The notes beneath the pieces were generated by a model. It did no database searches, had not been told where the DNA came from, and saw only the letters and a list, made by a program, of their open reading frames with translations. Both the position numbers and the translations under genes were made by a program. A stretch of DNA of 64,000 nucleotides from an uncultured Bacteroidales bacterium (lineage in GTDB: Bacteria; Bacteroidota; Bacteroidia; Bacteroidales; Muribaculaceae): positions 1-64,000 of the forward strand of contig CACYSG010000002.1 in the NCBI GenBank assembly GCA_902776955.1, written 5' to 3'. Of the stretch, positions 8,021 through 62,174 are shown in pieces; within the stretch, counting starts at the first letter, position 1; each line of letters starts with the position of its first letter.

Positions 8021-8526
8021 TATTACGGGGGGCGAGGTATTACGGGGGGACGGTTCTTCAGTCCGAAAAATGCATGCATTTTTCATCCAGAAGAGCCGTC
8101 CCCTTTTCCTGCGTTTTTTCTTTCGTTTGTCGTGTGGCCACGCCAAGGCGAGGCCCTACAGTGCGGATGTTTTCAGAGAATTCAGATTAATCAGTTGTTT
8201 ATTACGGGGGGACGGTTCTTCAGTCCGAAAAATGCATGCATTTTTCATCCAGAAGAGCCGTCCCCTTTTCCTGCGTTTTTTTCTTTCGTTTGTCGTGTGG
8301 CCACGCCAAGGCGAGGCCCTACAGTGTGGATGTTTTCAGGAAATTCAGACTAATCAGGTGTTTATTACGGGGGGACGGTTCTTCAGTCCGAAAATGCATG
8401 CATTTTTCATCCAGAAGAGCCGTCCCCTTTTCTTGCGTTTTTTTTCTTTCGTTTGTCGTGCGGCCACGCCAAGGCGAGGCCCTACAGTGTGGATGCTTTC
8501 AGAGAATTCAGACTAATCAGGTGTTT
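8021..8526. repeat. Three tandem copies of an about 163-bp hairpin element
   Basis: Copies start at 8039, 8201 and 8364 with ATTACGGGGGGACGG. Each opens with a long imperfect hairpin: GGGGACGGTTCTT pairs with AAGAGCCGTCCCC across a perfect palindrome AAAAATGCATGCATTTTT (one A shorter in copy 3). A conserved tail follows (GTGGCCACGCCAAGGCGAGG, CCCTACAGTG, and TTCAGACTAATCAG). It fills the whole 655-bp gap between two convergent genes. Apparent frames here are repeat artefacts. A partial, rearranged copy is at 49740-49840. Confidence 0.85.
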
Positions 8527-56567: not shown

Positions 56568-56729
56568 TAAAGTTCGCCAATAAAGCGGAGAAATGATGGT
56601 AATTACACTTGTGGGATTTTTCTGGTTATTGTGACAGCGGCGAGGGCGGTGCATCACTGTTCTGTATTTTATGTGTTTTTTTGATAATATTTTTGGTCTT
56701 GAGCAGGGAGAAAAATGACGGCGAATTAG

Positions 56730-56885
56730 GGCCAATTGGTCGGATTGGGCTAATTGGACTAATTGGTCGAATTGGTCGAATTGGACTAATTGGTCGAATT
56801 GGGCTAATGGGACTAATAGGACTAATTGGTCGAATAGGAGTAATAGGAGTAATAGGACTAATTGGTCGGATTAGTCCTATTTGGT
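56730..56885. repeat. 9-bp tandem repeat tract (ATTGGACTA/ATTGGTCGA), about 17 units
   Basis: Units ATTGGACTA, ATTGGTCGA, ATAGGAGTA and variants, ending close to the S41 peptidase stop codon. Same type as the tracts in polA and porW but non-coding here. Confidence 0.85.
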
Positions 56886-56905
56886 TGATTGTTGGGGGGT
56901 GGTGG

Positions 56906-57910
56906 TTATTGGTTTTTGGTTTTCTGGGTGAGGATGTCGATGGCGGTGTCGAGGATGGCGTCGCGGGTGCGGTCGTTCTCGTCCATGTCAACGCGCACGT
57001 CGGGTGCTACGCCGAACTCGGTGAGTCGGCCCTGGGCGTCCATGATGGGGCACGACGAGAAGCGCACGCGCCAGCCGTTGGGCAGCTCGCTGGTGAAGGG
57101 TAGGCCACAGCCGCCGCCTGTGGTGTCGCCCACGATGGTGACCTGGTCGAGCCCCTTCATGATGGAGACGAAGTTGTTGGTGGCGCTGAAGGAGCCGCGG
57201 CTTGCCAGCACGACGACGGGCTTGAGGTAATGGATGTGGTTTTTGGCTGGCTCGAAGTAGTAGGGGTAGGGCTCGCTCAGGTCGTTGTGGCCCTTGCCTG
57301 TCTTGTGGCAGATGTAGCCCGCAAGGGTTTTCCCCTCGATGAAACGGGAGACGAGTTTCTCGACGTTGGTGAGCATGCCGCCGCCGTTGTCGCGCACGTC
57401 GATGATGAGGCCGTCGGCGGTGGATAAGTAGCTGAGTATCAGGTCCAGGTTGCCCTCGCCGATTTCGCTTGAGAAGGAGCCGTAGTACATGTATCCGAAG
57501 TTGTCGGGCAGGATCTGGTACTTGATGCCCGAGGACCTCATGTAGTCGAAGTTGAGGTAGTGCTGGTCGATGATGCGCTCGTCGTAGTTCACGGGCCACT
57601 GTTCCCACACCCAGTATCGGGAAACGTCATGGGTGGCGATGAGGTTGGTGTGGCCGTCGCGCAGTTCCTTGAGCATGGTGCCGCAGATGTCAAACAACTC
57701 CCTGTCGGTCATCTCGTTAGACACGCGGGCGCGGTAGCGGCTGTGCACCTCGTTCCAGTCCACCTGCTTGTAGTCAAAGAAGCTGTAGTGCTCGTCCATG
57801 ATGGTCCACAACGCCTCGAAGTTACCCACCTGGTCATGCTCAAACTCGTCCTTCTCGGCACACCCCACCAAGACCAGTAAAACTACAAAGTATAATAATA
57901 TTCTTTTCAT
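56906..57910 (-). CDS. Lipoprotein S41-family peptidase
   Basis: 334 residues. Lipobox LVLVGC (Cys17). The S41 (C-terminal processing) protease domain has DGLIIDVRDNGGG (about 191-203) and SRGSFSATNNF with the likely catalytic serine near 245, then GDTTGGGCGLP. No PDZ domain is visible. Probably an outer-membrane or periplasmic processing or housekeeping protease. Upstream lies the GxxExxY cassette, which may have replaced its native promoter. Confidence 0.88.
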   Translation of the reverse strand: MKRILLYFVVLLVLVGCAEKDEFEHDQVGNFEALWTIMDEHYSFFDYKQVDWNEVHSRYRARVSNEMTDRELFDICGTMLKELRDGHTNLIATHDVSRYWVWEQWPVNYDERIIDQHYLNFDYMRSSGIKYQILPDNFGYMYYGSFSSEIGEGNLDLILSYLSTADGLIIDVRDNGGGMLTNVEKLVSRFIEGKTLAGYICHKTGKGHNDLSEPYPYYFEPAKNHIHYLKPVVVLASRGSFSATNNFVSIMKGLDQVTIVGDTTGGGCGLPFTSELPNGWRVRFSSCPIMDAQGRLTEFGVAPDVRVDMDENDRTRDAILDTAIDILTQKTKNQ

Positions 57911-57921
57911 CGTCTTTAGAT

Positions 57922-58482
57922 AAAACTACGAATTCCGCGAATTAAACAAATTTTTGGCATCCGCGCTCTTATTATTTCAAATTTCACTAATGGCATCCGC
58001 ATACTTCATGAATGATTAGTTGTTGCTGCACTGTTGTGGATATTGCAAAAACGTTCAGTTTTTAAACTTGTTTCGCCAAAGTTTGCGAGAATTCCCAACT
58101 CATAGCCAGTGGCTTTCAGATAATTAATTATTTGGGCTTTCTCAATATCTGATAATTTGTTGATCGCTTTCAGCTCCACAATAATCTTATCATAACAAAC
58201 AAAATCGGCGATATAATCTTGCTGAAGAGGAATACCTTTATAAAAAACCTTCAGGCTGGCTTCTCTCTTATAGGGAATTCCCTTAGCTATGAATTCGCGC
58301 TCCAGCGCTTCTTGGTAAACTTTCTCCAAAAAGCCGCATCCCAGTTCACGATGAACCGTCATCATGCATCCAATGATATCGTATGATTCTTTAGGATAGA
58401 TTATCATAAGATATGTAGTTTGTTTAATTCGTAATAATTGAATGCGGATGCCAATTAGTTAAATTCGCGTAATTCGTAGTTT
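57922..58482. mobile_element. GxxExxY cassette with inverted terminal repeats (about 561 bp)
   Basis: Left end 57922-57964 (AAAACTACGAATTCCGCGAA, then TTAAACAAATTTTTGGCATC and CGC) and the right end, read inverted from 58482 (AAACTACGAATTACGCGAAT, then TTAACTAATTGGCATCCGC), are the same sequence at about 85% over some 40 bp. Between them is only the GxxExxY gene. A gene-less relative, matching the left 85 bp, lies at 59277-59403. Confidence 0.7.
58006..58407 (-). CDS. GxxExxY protein, PD-(D/E)XK nuclease-like (PDDEXK_3)
   Basis: 133 residues, complete. The family motif is GFLEKVY (G25, E28, Y31). The nuclease-like core is IADFV...KIIVELKA, an Asp followed by ExK, as in PD-(D/E)XK enzymes. 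The family (PF13366) is widespread in environmental and Bacteroidales genomes and its function is not established. The stop codon lies inside the left repeat and the start codon is 35 bp inside the right repeat, so coding and repeat are one unit. Confidence 0.85.
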   Translation of the reverse strand: MIIYPKESYDIIGCMMTVHRELGCGFLEKVYQEALEREFIAKGIPYKREASLKVFYKGIPLQQDYIADFVCYDKIIVELKAINKLSDIEKAQIINYLKATGYELGILANFGETSLKTERFCNIHNSAATTNHS

Positions 58483-58489
58483 AAGAGCC

Positions 58490-59272
58490 TTAGTGGCCGA
58501 TGCCGAGGACTAGGGAGTGGGTGACGTCGTGGACCTTGAGGTGGTTGACGTTCCAGTGCTCAAGGCGGGTGCGGTAGCCGAGGCGCAGGGTGACCTTGCC
58601 GAGGTGCAGGTCGGCGCCCAGGTAGTGGGTCATGTCCAGGCGGTTGCCCCACCAGCCCAGGTGGGCGAGATTCTTGTGGTTGCCCAGGTAGATCTCGTAA
58701 TAGCTCTCGTCATACTCGGGGGCGAAGAAAACGCCTGCTACAGGCAGCTGCACCTGGTAACGCAGGGTGATGGGTTTGCGCCACAGGCGTGTGTGCAAGT
58801 CCGCTCCGGCGGCAACGCCGACGTTCCAGTGGGCACGCACGGTGACGGGGTTGTTGCTGTTGACGTCGTTGTAGACGATGCCCGCGCGCAGCTGGGTCAT
58901 CGGGCCCGCCGTCAGGCTCATCCTGCCGGTGACGGCCCAACGGCGCTGCATGTTGAACGCGAGGTCGCCCATGAGCTTCATCAGGTCGTTGTTCTTGGCC
59001 GGGTTCTCGACGTAGTTGTAGTCGGCGCCCACATTGAGCTGCCACTGCCATCGCCCTTGCTTGCAGACCCTTGAGGCCTCATAGGCCAGCCCCAAGTCAA
59101 TGCCGTCGTAGGTGATGGGCGTGAGGTAACTGTCGTGAATCGAGGCATAGCCAGCGTCGACCATGAACATCGACACGCCCTCAGGTGCCTCGTCGGGGTG
59201 GGCACTTGCGGGAAGCGCTATCAACAGCAAGCTGCCAAAAACGACTAATAATATTAATATTCTGCTCTTCAT
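58490..59272 (-). CDS. DUF3316-like outer-membrane beta-barrel protein
   Basis: 260 residues from ATG 59272 (MKSRILILLVVFGSLLLIAL), with a signal peptide ending PASA. The upstream ATG at 59317 would read through the mini-element. The body is alternating beta strands ending in VTHSLVLGIGH, and YLTPITYDG near the N-terminus resembles DUF3316 proteins. An outer-membrane barrel is likely; function unknown. It is squeezed between two copies of the GxxExxY-type repeat. Confidence 0.75.
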   Translation of the reverse strand: MKSRILILLVVFGSLLLIALPASAHPDEAPEGVSMFMVDAGYASIHDSYLTPITYDGIDLGLAYEASRVCKQGRWQWQLNVGADYNYVENPAKNNDLMKLMGDLAFNMQRRWAVTGRMSLTAGPMTQLRAGIVYNDVNSNNPVTVRAHWNVGVAAGADLHTRLWRKPITLRYQVQLPVAGVFFAPEYDESYYEIYLGNHKNLAHLGWWGNRLDMTHYLGADLHLGKVTLRLGYRTRLEHWNVNHLKVHDVTHSLVLGIGH

Positions 59273-59276
59273 TAAT

Positions 59277-59403
59277 AAACTACGAATTACGCGAATTAAA
59301 CTAATTTGCATCCGCATACTTTATTATTTCGAATTTCACGAATGGCATCCGCATTGTTTTTATATCACTGTGGTGCTTGCCAATGCGTGAAATCCGTAGT
59401 TTT
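59277..59403. mobile_element. MITE-like gene-less relative of the GxxExxY cassette
   Basis: 127 bp. Left end AAACTACGAATTACGCGAAT and inverted right end AAAACTACGGATTTCACGCA; the interior 59300-59365 matches 57945-58010 of the cassette, including two GCATCCGC boxes. It exactly fills the gap between the DUF3316-like gene and parC, and its right end touches the parC stop codon. Confidence 0.65.
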
Positions 59404-62174
59404 TAGTCGTCAAAGGGGATGCGCTGCTGGCCGGTGAACTGGTCGAGCACCTCGTCCTGGCTGATGCCGTCGGTCGTGATGGGTTCGCCGGGTTCGCTGG
59501 TTCGGGTTGTGGGGGGCGCGTCGTCGGGGCTCGGGGTCTCCTCGGGCTGGGGAGCCGGCTCACGCGGCTCGACCTCGGTGATGGAGTCCACCTCCCAGTT
59601 GGTGACGCGGCGTCCCTTGGCCTTGAAGGTCTTCACGCCGATAAACTCCTCGGCGTCAATCACAAAGGGCTCTCGTGCCTTGTCGGCACCGCCCATCTTC
59701 ACCTCGAAGCGCGGGCAGGGTTCGTCGCTCAATAGCAGCAGCCTCGACTCGGGGTTGGTGCCGATGAAGCTCTGCTTCTTGGTGTTGTCCTCGAGCGTGA
59801 AACGTTTCACGTAGGGGTGGCCCTGGTCGGCGTCGTCGAGCACGGCGGTCCAGACCTTGTCCTTGACATACTTCTCGATGCGCAGGATGCCCTCGTCATA
59901 GTGGTTGGTGGCCTCGGCGCTGGTGGTGTAGAATTCGCCCGTCTGCATGATGACCAGGATGCGGTCCTCGCCGCCGAAGAGTCCCAGCGAACGCCCGTGC
60001 TTCTCGTAGTTGATGCGCAGGATGTCGGGGTCGAACCACACCTCGCGGTCGCCGAGGGTGGACTGGCCGGCCTCCTTGAGCGAGATGCGTGTCACCTCGT
60101 TCTTGGTCACGATGTTACCGCGTGCCTGCTTGCCCTTGATGGCGAGTTCGGCCAGGTCGACGTCAAACTGCAGGATCTTGAGCCTGAACTTGGGTTTGAG
60201 GGTGATGCGCAGCACCTCGGCCTCGCCGTTGGGGTTGGCGGTGAACCAGGTGATCTTGCTGCCCGGTTTGCCCTGGGTGATGTCATATTCCCTGTCGCGT
60301 GTGATGCCCGTGACGGCAAAACGCTTCATGTAGGTCGTGCCGCCGCGTCCGTCCTGGTAGAGGACGTTGTAGATGGTGCGGTCGTCGCCCTTCTTGAACA
60401 CGTTCAGGTACAGGATGTTCTTGCCGACGTAGATCTTGTCGGCCACCTTGGTGACCTTGAACTTGCCGTTCTTGTAGAAGATGATGATGTCGTCGATGTC
60501 CGAGCAGTTGCACACAAACTCGTCCTTCTTCAGTCCCGTGCCGATGAAGCCGTCGGCGCGGTTGATGTAGAGCTTCTGGTTGGCCTCGGCGACCTTGCTG
60601 GCCACGATGGTGTCAAACTCGCGGATGACGGTGCGGCGCGGGTACTTCGAGCCGTACTTGGTCTTGAGGTTCTTGAACCACTCGATGGTGTGCTCGGTCA
60701 GGTGTGCCAGCTTGTAGTCGATGTCCTCGATGCGCTCCTTGAGTCGCGCGATGTTCTCCTCGGCCTTGTCGCTATTGTACTTGATGATACGCTTCATCGG
60801 TATCTCGAGCAGGCGCAGCAGGTCGTCCTCGGTAATCTCGCGGTAGAACTGGGGCTTGAAGGGCTTCAAGCGCTTGTCGATGTGCTTGAGGGCGCGTTCC
60901 TGGTCCTTGGCGTTCTCAAATTCCTTGTCCTTGTAGATGCGCTCCTCGATGAAGATTTTCTCGAGCGAGACGTTGTGGAGGGCTTCCATCGTCTCACCAC
61001 GCTGGATTTCAAGCTCCTGGCGCAGGATGTCGCGCGTGCGGTCCACGTTGTAGCGCAGCACGTCGCTCACGGTGAGGAACTGCGGCTTCTGGTCCTTGAT
61101 GACGCAGCAGTTGGGCCAGATGGAGATTTCGCAGTCGGTGAAGGCATACAGCGCGTCGATGGCGATGTCGCTGCTCGAGCCGGCCTGTAGCGAGACGATG
61201 ATCTCGGCCGTGGCGCTGGTGTTGTCCTCGACCTTGCGGATCTTGATTTTGCCGCGTTCGCCGGCCTTGAGGATCGACTCGATGACGGTGCCGGTGGTCT
61301 TGCCGTAGGGCACGTCCTTGACCAGGAGTGTCTTGTTGTCGAGTTTCTCGATTTTGGCCCTCACGCGGACGTATCCGCCGCGCTCGCCGTCGTTGTAGTG
61401 GCTCACGTCGATGTAACCGCCCGTCTGGAAGTCGGGGTAGAGGTGGAACTCCTCGCCGCGCAGGTACTGTATCGCCGCGTCGATGACCTCGTTGAAGTTG
61501 TGCGGCAAAATCTTGCACGACAGGCCGACGGCGATACCCTCGGCGCCTTGGGTCAGCAACAGCGGGAACTTGGCGGGCAGCGTCAGCGGCTCGCGCTTGC
61601 GGCCGTCATAGGAGAGGCCCCAGTCGGTCACCTTGGGGTTATACACCGCGTCGAGCGCAAATTCGCTCAACCTGGCCTCGATGTAACGGCCGGCGGCCGC
61701 ACCGTCGCCGGTAAGGATGTTACCCCAGTTACCCTGGGTGTCGATGAGCAGCTCTTTCTGTCCCAGCTGCACCAGCGCGCTGTAGATCGAGGCGTCGCCG
61801 TGGGGGTGATACTGCATCGTCAATCCCACGATATTGGCCACCTTGTTGAAGTGACCGTCGTCGGCCTCCTTCATGGCGTGCATGATGCGGCGCTGCACGG
61901 GTTTGAAGCCGTCCTCGATGTGGGGGACGGCGCGCTCCAGGATCACATAGGAGGCATAGTCGAGAAACCAGTTCTCGTACATTCCGCTCAGCTGCAGCTT
62001 TTTATCTTTAGGCACCTGATAGGAGGAGTGGGCCTGCGGCTCGTTGCCGTCGTCGCCGTTCTCGGGCGCGGGGGCATCGTTCTCGTTGGCGTTCATGTCG
62101 TCTTGGGCATTGCCCTCGACAGGCTCCTGTTGCTCCTGTCCTTCCAGTTCGTCTTCGTCTTTCTTCATATCCAA
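59403..62174 (-). CDS. parC: DNA topoisomerase IV subunit A
   Basis: 923 residues. An acidic low-complexity N-terminus (1-50) precedes the GyrA/ParC breakage domain: KPVQRRIMHAM, QYHPHGDASIY, and AAGRYIEARLS with catalytic Tyr164. The C-terminal part is a beta-pinwheel-like domain (to about 850), then a proline-rich acidic tail. Cuts and rejoins DNA to unlink sister chromosomes, with ParE as partner. ParE is not in the window. The ATG may be 62174 or 62168. Confidence 0.93.
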   Translation of the reverse strand: MDMKKDEDELEGQEQQEPVEGNAQDDMNANENDAPAPENGDDGNEPQAHSSYQVPKDKKLQLSGMYENWFLDYASYVILERAVPHIEDGFKPVQRRIMHAMKEADDGHFNKVANIVGLTMQYHPHGDASIYSALVQLGQKELLIDTQGNWGNILTGDGAAAGRYIEARLSEFALDAVYNPKVTDWGLSYDGRKREPLTLPAKFPLLLTQGAEGIAVGLSCKILPHNFNEVIDAAIQYLRGEEFHLYPDFQTGGYIDVSHYNDGERGGYVRVRAKIEKLDNKTLLVKDVPYGKTTGTVIESILKAGERGKIKIRKVEDNTSATAEIIVSLQAGSSSDIAIDALYAFTDCEISIWPNCCVIKDQKPQFLTVSDVLRYNVDRTRDILRQELEIQRGETMEALHNVSLEKIFIEERIYKDKEFENAKDQERALKHIDKRLKPFKPQFYREITEDDLLRLLEIPMKRIIKYNSDKAEENIARLKERIEDIDYKLAHLTEHTIEWFKNLKTKYGSKYPRRTVIREFDTIVASKVAEANQKLYINRADGFIGTGLKKDEFVCNCSDIDDIIIFYKNGKFKVTKVADKIYVGKNILYLNVFKKGDDRTIYNVLYQDGRGGTTYMKRFAVTGITRDREYDITQGKPGSKITWFTANPNGEAEVLRITLKPKFRLKILQFDVDLAELAIKGKQARGNIVTKNEVTRISLKEAGQSTLGDREVWFDPDILRINYEKHGRSLGLFGGEDRILVIMQTGEFYTTSAEATNHYDEGILRIEKYVKDKVWTAVLDDADQGHPYVKRFTLEDNTKKQSFIGTNPESRLLLLSDEPCPRFEVKMGGADKAREPFVIDAEEFIGVKTFKAKGRRVTNWEVDSITEVEPREPAPQPEETPSPDDAPPTTRTSEPGEPITTDGISQDEVLDQFTGQQRIPFDD

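Follow-up and report, generated by a model that had tools for sequence, protein, structure and literature searches.

Whether a small gene enclosed by inverted repeats, with a gene-less copy of the same ends beside it, represents a mobile element, and whether the protein that it encodes is the factor that mobilizes it, is the question raised by this locus. In the window, i.e., the whole 64,000-nt stretch of DNA that was analyzed, a 560-bp unit at positions 57923–58482 consists of a GxxExxY (TIGR04256) gene between inverted repeats. The sequence-only reading of this DNA had described such an enclosed gene, and its arms, 57923–57952 and 58453–58482, indeed show 90% complementarity over 30 nt and lie 500 nt apart.

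The cassette and its gene-less copy

The features of the locus are as follows:

57923..57952, + strand: left inverted arm, with tandem units TACGAATT, CCGCGAATT, and AAACAAATT, period 9
57969..58002, + strand: subterminal repeat (family D3), second copy at 59321–59354 (94%)
58006..58407, − strand: GxxExxY/PDDEXK_3 gene, 133 aa, recognized by profile match and conserved residues
58426..58482, − strand: right inverted arm, of which the 30-nt arm proper is 58453–58482
59276..59403, + strand: gene-less copy, its left ~80 bp cassette-like and its right end (59382–59402) degenerate

The left arm matches itself at a lag of 9 with a value of 0.62, and weaker similarity extends to 58002. Four matches to the core AAACTACGAATTNCGCGAATT were found in the window at up to three mismatches and none in 100 shuffles. 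Ungapped inverted pairs scoring at least 34 in the whole window comprise the cassette arms, the pair formed by an arm and the gene-less copy, and one unrelated palindrome family at 8065–8408, in which the palindrome GAAAAATGCATGCATTTTTC occurs three times at a spacing of ~162 bp. The gene-less copy matches window positions 57923–58002 at 86% and the inverted arm at 58442–58483 at 95% over 42 nt, so that the similarity to the left part of the cassette previously claimed for it stands over ~80 bp; the claimed inverted end does so only in part, its far end being degenerate (22 nt, 82%). The copy lies between two genes, as had been read, namely an ORF listed at 58490–59317, the likely start of which is an internal ATG, and an ORF ending at 59403. 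By eye, the translations of the neighbors are OMP-like and parC-like beside the gene-less copy and S41-like on the other side of the cassette. Low-complexity ORFs on both strands, with repeated GLIGRIG/RPISPI, are located at 56609–56991 beside the 3′ end of the S41-like gene. No Rfam match was obtained for window positions 57800–59600 up to an E value of 1.

In the genome from which the window derives there are 51 matches to the repeat at E ≤ 0.1, the last three of them weak, and three of the 51 are in this window. The same genome has two GxxExxY genes, the second of which is associated with a different repeat. Four inverted pairs of 323–365 bp in this genome (L005, L006, L007, and L030) contain, by eye, nested arrays and hairpin sequences. 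They were considered as gene-deletion derivatives of the cassette and rejected, since no gene remnant was found in L001–L030 outside the cassette itself.

The GxxExxY protein

The ORF at 58006–58407 belongs to the GxxExxY family, scoring 145.8 bits to TIGR04256 (cut-off 35) and 138.7 bits to PF13366 (cut-off 22). Seven residues, G25, E28, Y31, D68, E78, Y96, and N109, are invariant in 66 aligned members, and K80 and Q92 are nearly so, each being present in at least 90% of them. RecB-type nucleases have a D/E-x-K/Q..Y motif layout, and the conserved residues of the window protein fit it. In the predicted structure (pLDDT 91.7) the closest solved fold is Cas4 SSO0001 (4ic1; E 8.2e-4, TMq 0.53), followed by LHK-Exo (E 8.7e-4); these were the only two PDB matches at E ≤ 0.001, with lambda exonuclease and MGME1 next in the ranking and Holliday-junction resolvase and homing-nuclease domains lower (E 0.16–0.19). 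Two close matches were found in BFVD, one of them named a PD-(D/E)XK nuclease of Halogranum tailed virus 1. Judged by these residues and by the modeled fold, GxxExxY is most probably a PD-(D/E)XK nuclease of RecB/Cas4 type, which would be catalytically active. T7 endonuclease I, detected only weakly when a sequence profile was compared with the PDB (E 0.23 and 0.41), is not relied on.

Neither the family profiles nor the fold search matched GxxExxY to a transposase family or fold, and none of the anti-phage defense families of PADLOC-DB 2.0.0 matched at E ≤ 0.1; PHROGs gave three weak matches (best E 0.0036). In PMC8934634 a GxxExxY gene is reported beside a reverse transcriptase. Open-licence PMC text yielded nothing on an association between GxxExxY and repeats, nor any occurrence of six repeat strings sought in it.

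Inverted flanks at GxxExxY loci of related genomes

The TIGR04256 profile matched 44 of 61 genomes, that of the window included (43 above the cut-off), with up to 12 matches each and 159 in total. From these, taking higher-scoring matches first, 110 distinct loci were drawn; 112 loci were read, and removal of two duplicates (L031 and L111) and one locus at a contig end (L080) left 109 for an arm test in which up to 250 bp before the gene was aligned with the reverse-complemented sequence, again of up to 250 bp, that follows it. Inverted flanks, defined by no more than 1 of 100 shuffles scoring as high, were found at 95 of the 109 loci, the arm pair being non-significant at the other 14. An arm score of at least 28 was reached at 87/109 loci, vs. 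2/32 other ORFs of the same loci and 0/30 ORFs of the window. A smaller set had given inverted flanks with z > 4 at 28 of 31 loci; L041 and L042, which scored 53 and 52 in that set, failed in the 109-locus test because of the choice of start codon and the flank length.

The arms, mostly located within tens of bases of the gene, consist by eye of about three tandem units of period 8–11 in most cases, and the units differ between lineages, the types recognized including CGAATT, CTGATT, CGCTAAG, CACAGAG, AACAAC, ACAAGAAAT, ACATAAG, and CGTAAAT, among others. Arm similarity is correlated with protein similarity across 92 loci (Mantel rho 0.25; the largest value in 999 permutations was 0.10), a correlation that derives mostly from proteins more than 70% identical and is in part shared descent. 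Window-type copies were also counted within the genus, with at most 15 candidates scored per genome and protein comparison confined to the proteins fetched. Of the eight genus genomes for which a fetched protein shared at least 60% identity with that of the window, seven had at least nine scored copies; among the 28 other genus genomes, 18 were without window-type copies and three had 11–15 scored copies without a close protein.

When 400 kb of G033 was scanned for tandem arrays that have an inverted partner, three pairs were returned, vs. none in a block-shuffled control. One belongs to a GxxExxY cassette, one, made of TTGCGTTTG arrays, encloses an HUH-like gene, and the third consists of two period-7 elements without a gene, which happen to lie on either side of a gene that reads, by eye, as an acyl-CoA dehydrogenase. 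The same scan returned no pair in the window, where it missed the cassette itself, and it therefore undercounts. The motif GGCATCCGC, or a close form of it, is present at window positions 57992–58002, 58442–58452, and 59344–59354, and it recurs in this form or a close one in G033:C1 at ~6680 and ~309031 (L173 and L188). It adjoins arrays of very different units, of both the GxxExxY and the period-7 type, and may represent a shared core.

A repeat type shared across phyla and archaea

A stronger test, across phyla, used a narrower alignment built for the subfamily with the sequence LGPGLLESVYE; from its 565 relatives in named genomes the best 80 were taken, 78 of the loci being testable and two too short. 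By the same shuffle test an arm pair was significant at 50/78 loci, in records titled Methylococcaceae, Planctomycetota, Chloroflexota, Deltaproteobacteria, Alphaproteobacteria, and Methanosarcinales archaeon, and not significant at 28, including loci titled Gemmatimonadales, Bryobacteraceae, Dehalococcoidia, and Methanothrix. The earlier question of whether GxxExxY genes always lie inside these repeats is answered in the negative: they mostly lie inside repeats of this kind (50/78 here and 95/109 above), but lineages have repeats of their own.

CACAGAG-like tandem pairs were present within 300 bp on both sides of the gene at 42 of the 78 loci, on one side at 25, and on neither at 11, such that arrays occur on at least one side at 67/78; 218 of these pairs are directed inward vs. 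53 outward, where 8.2 would be expected from the rest of the loci. True upstream/downstream pairs scored at least 28 at 43/78 loci vs. 38/400 mismatched pairs drawn across phyla, the latter scoring as they do because the repeats are shared. The flank counts over bacteria and archaea therefore indicate that one repeat type accompanies one protein subfamily across two domains.

Sites with and without the element

Sites were sought by comparing window positions 57300–59900 with 101 genomes of the genus, 98 of which gave a match. The cassette is in place at the locus corresponding to that of the window in G006, G124, and G102. Matches to the cassette alone, elsewhere in the genome, were found in seven others (G019, G113, G115, G036, G099, G079, and G082, with a shorter one in G071); they run from query positions 613–625 to 1183–1186, the arms being at 624–1183, and at least those of G019, G036, and G115 are at one common site. 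In G024 a 93%-identical protein is encoded at the neighboring site, the one occupied in the window by the gene-less copy. The 1-kb flanks of eight window-like cassettes resolve into six sites, three of which fall within the protein group at least 80% identical to that of the window.

Several orthologous sites were compared among genomes at the level of single bases. At the L034 site the gene is present in G025, and G093, which shares 98.8% identity with G025 over a test region taken from another gene, has 41 bp with no such repeat; G115 and G070 are also without the repeat, G017 lacks this type and has another palindrome, and G098 has a gene-less pair within 90 bp. At the L040 site the gene is present in G036 and an equally large cassette in G115, gene-less copies that share the outer ends lie within 87 bp in G098 and within 63 bp in G070, and G017 and G093 are without such arms and contain other short palindromic sequence. 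The L067 site holds the gene in G025, a unit of the same size in G093, and 28 bp in G115, and at the L116 site there are cassette-sized units with different arms in several species and short elements of other types in G093 and one G070 locus. A single site can thus be found gene-bearing, gene-less, or element-free, and element types turn over, whether by gain or by loss.

Clean empty sites in relatives had been named as a check, and element-free sites do exist, but they are not exact to the base. For the locus of the window itself, clean empty sites were rejected across the sites of 29 species, nearly all of which hold another array element or other sequence. In the orthologs of window positions 57880–58499 and 59260–59405 (L223–L252), AACAAC, ACAATAAGTACAAT, or CGAATT elements are found depending on the species, as if these positions were hot spots. 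Among 82 cassettes there was no excess of target-site duplications of 4–8 bp over mismatched pairs. Among 154 protein pairs within genomes, a single pair reaches 93% identity and no other exceeds 67%, and recent duplication of whole cassettes is therefore rare. The proposal that the two copies in the window form a transposable pair accordingly retains its inverted ends, dispersed gene-less relatives, and element-free sites, and lacks a target duplication above control; the GxxExxY protein, which had been put forward as the possible transposase, may fill that role.

Dispersed copies and their dependence on the gene

The pattern CACAGAGN{1,4}CACAGAG was detected in 28 of 31 source genomes, which were the authors' selection among the 80, with up to 139 copies; the reversed pattern gave five in all. 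In the archaeal genomes G133 and G140 many of the copies, among the places listed, are inverted pairs of ~60–80 bp. Co-occurrence was then assessed in 247 genomes of the window's phylum, of which 126 match the gene profile and 121 do not. The CACAGAG repeat is present in 58/126 genomes with the gene vs. 4/121 without it, the copies numbering 403 vs. 8, and at least three copies are found in 32 gene-bearing genomes vs. one without the gene. Fisher's test gives p = 2e-16, which serves only as a guide because the genomes compared are related and the counts are therefore not independent. The reversed pattern gave 23 copies in 12 of the 247 genomes, nine of them gene-bearing; in G159 there are eight reversed copies vs. 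12 true ones. The 68 gene-bearing genomes without the CACAGAG repeat would be expected if other lineages used other repeats. Repeats scattered independently of the gene would, according to the sequence-only reading, make the association one of chance; the repeats look independent in the window's own genome (51 matches to two genes), but this fails across genomes.

These genomes also bear on an unlikely, though appreciable, alternative, in which a Y1 (HUH) RAYT-like transposase moves the palindromic repeats in trans, as for REPINs, and GxxExxY, trapped between two of them, serves as cargo or helper. All 33 genomes with at least three CACAGAG copies, 32 of which are gene-bearing, have a Y1_Tnp match, and that many copies are found in 0 of the 19 genomes that carry the gene but lack Y1, as such a transposase would lead one to expect; the lack of target duplications is likewise in keeping with it. 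Among the 69 genomes with Y1 and without GxxExxY, however, three have any CACAGAG copy and one has at least three. GxxExxY predicts the CACAGAG repeat better than Y1 does, and the association of one CACAGAG type with one GxxExxY subfamily across domains also argues against a passenger role. Help from a Y1 transposase for the repeats is possible, or genomes rich in mobile elements may simply carry both.

Loci of the Y1 profile PF01797 provide a further comparison, in which flanking pairs were significant at 16 of the 24 testable loci (of 30). By eye these look like G+C-rich hairpin REPs of another kind, which again speaks against the transposase as mover of the GxxExxY repeats, although the control is rough: the gene was placed by its H-x-H motif, and the ORF is more than 400 bp off the locus center at about half of the 24, in part because of contig ends. 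Y1/RAYT loci sharing the GxxExxY-type arrays were looked for by eye among these 24 and none was found, the exception being the HUH-like gene of G033. This gene (G033:C1:316645–317172; L188) is flanked by inverted TTGCGTTTG arrays of period 9, which differ from the hairpin-type repeats of other Y1 loci, and, scoring 13.6 bits to Y1_Tnp, below the cut-off of 23, is a point in favor of the transposase alternative.

S23 cassettes with a similar layout

TIGR02436 (S23 four-helix bundle) is a multicopy family, detected here in 50/61 genomes. At its loci L143–L172 flanking inverted repeats were found at 27/30, a figure without an ORF control of its own, and many of the arms are arrays of period ~7 (TTAGTTT, AGTTGTT). 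According to PMC4990558, the 23S rRNA intervening sequence of Coxiella has tandem heptamers upstream of an S23 ORF and ends within an inverted-repeat stem, and a mobile-element origin is among the hypotheses cited for it. Since the S23 and GxxExxY cassettes share a layout, they may represent either two parallel classes or the products of shared machinery.

Shared handling by the host, through replication slippage, cruciform cutting, or action of RNase III on RNA, would account for both sets of hairpin array ends if small proteins such as GxxExxY and S23 only stabilized or exploited the hairpins. The matching layout and period-7 arrays at TIGR02436 loci and the heptamers and stem of the Coxiella intervening sequence (PMC4990558) would fit such handling; it leaves the near-confinement of the repeats to gene-bearing genomes unexplained, however, and is considered quite improbable. 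Static arrays, with the arms serving the gene as operators or as RNA structures and the dispersed copies serving as regulatory sites elsewhere, would suit the closeness of the arms to the gene but not the similar cassettes at different sites, the element-free sites, the many gene-less inverted pairs, or the elements nested in one another, and are very improbable indeed.

A proposed nuclease-centered mobile element

The association of GxxExxY with the repeats, and its mobility, are well supported. A single gene within inverted ends, many gene-less pairs, and dependence of the repeats on the gene together led to the proposal of a nuclease-driven analog of REPIN–RAYT, in which the 560-bp unit is a small mobile element with inverted tandem-unit ends and the GxxExxY nuclease is its cognate trans-acting factor; this reading is given an even chance of being correct. 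The GxxExxY protein would recognize the unit arrays of its element, or a hairpin or cruciform formed by the two arms, and would cut or trim at the arrays, after which repair-coupled copying could place the unit in other intergenic sites. Copies may arise both of the gene-bearing form and, in trans, of the gene-less pair, in which case one gene would sustain a population of dispersed palindromic repeats in the manner of REPIN–RAYT. We infer that GxxExxY binds and cleaves DNA and that it causes gain by movement and not only differential loss. Points that weigh against the proposal are the lack of target duplications, the co-occurrence of many-copy genomes with Y1, the rarity of recently duplicated cassettes, the loci with no significant arm pair, the three genus genomes rich in scored copies but lacking a close protein, the 68 gene-bearing genomes without the CACAGAG repeat, and the layout shared with S23 genes.

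REPIN–RAYT systems were themselves recognized from like evidence, i.e., a gene between inverted ends, gene-less pairs, and gene dependence, as set out in PMC3116915. Common to both are a gene near inverted repeat copies, extragenic gene-less inverted pairs, and a repeat group tied to a specific gene: the inverted flanks (95/109 loci), the doublets listed in G133 and G140, and the dependence of the repeat population on the gene (58/126 vs. 4/121 related genomes) are of this kind. The cognate gene, in contrast, is TIGR04256/PF13366, of RecB/Cas4-type PD-(D/E)XK class by prediction and not HUH Y1, and the ends comprise several tandem units rather than one palindromic REP. Having no HUH enzyme, the GxxExxY cassette is not a member of REPIN–RAYT.

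Resemblances to other systems are also partial. Autonomous elements and their MITEs have gene-bearing and gene-less forms that share inverted ends, as is the case here, but the GxxExxY cassette differs from MITEs and insertion sequences in that no known transposase fold and no target-site duplication were detected, and by the tests made it is not a MITE. PD-(D/E)XK homing endonucleases and TnsA of Tn7 are members of the same nuclease superfamily with roles in DNA mobility; homing genes are not known to have inverted tandem ends, which set GxxExxY apart, and TnsA works with TnsB. To our knowledge, no element is known in which a RecB/Cas4-type nuclease is the sole protein, which also weighs against the proposal. 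The 23S rRNA intervening sequence (PMC4990558) has a small ORF in inverted repeats with short tandem repeats, as here, but its protein has another fold and the sequence is located within rRNA genes and excised at the RNA level.

A broader and more tentative reading, to which somewhat less than an even likelihood is attached, is that these cassettes constitute a new class of prokaryotic element, in bacteria and archaea, whose sole protein, a RecB/Cas4-type nuclease, recognizes its own inverted tandem-unit ends, co-diversifies with them, and spreads gene-less copies in trans, the S23 period-7 cassettes being a second, parallel class.

The GxxExxY gene and its repeats look like a little-noticed mobile DNA system. 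GxxExxY is a scattered and often multicopy family. A mobile lifestyle bound to repeats, if true, would account for its patchy distribution and would assign dispersed intergenic repeats of the CACAGAG, CGAATT, and CGCTAAG types to an owner; it would also extend, by a class of nuclease, the means by which DNA is moved in bacteria and archaea. The pairing of protein with repeat, specific to each lineage, poses a problem of protein–DNA recognition that is open to direct test.
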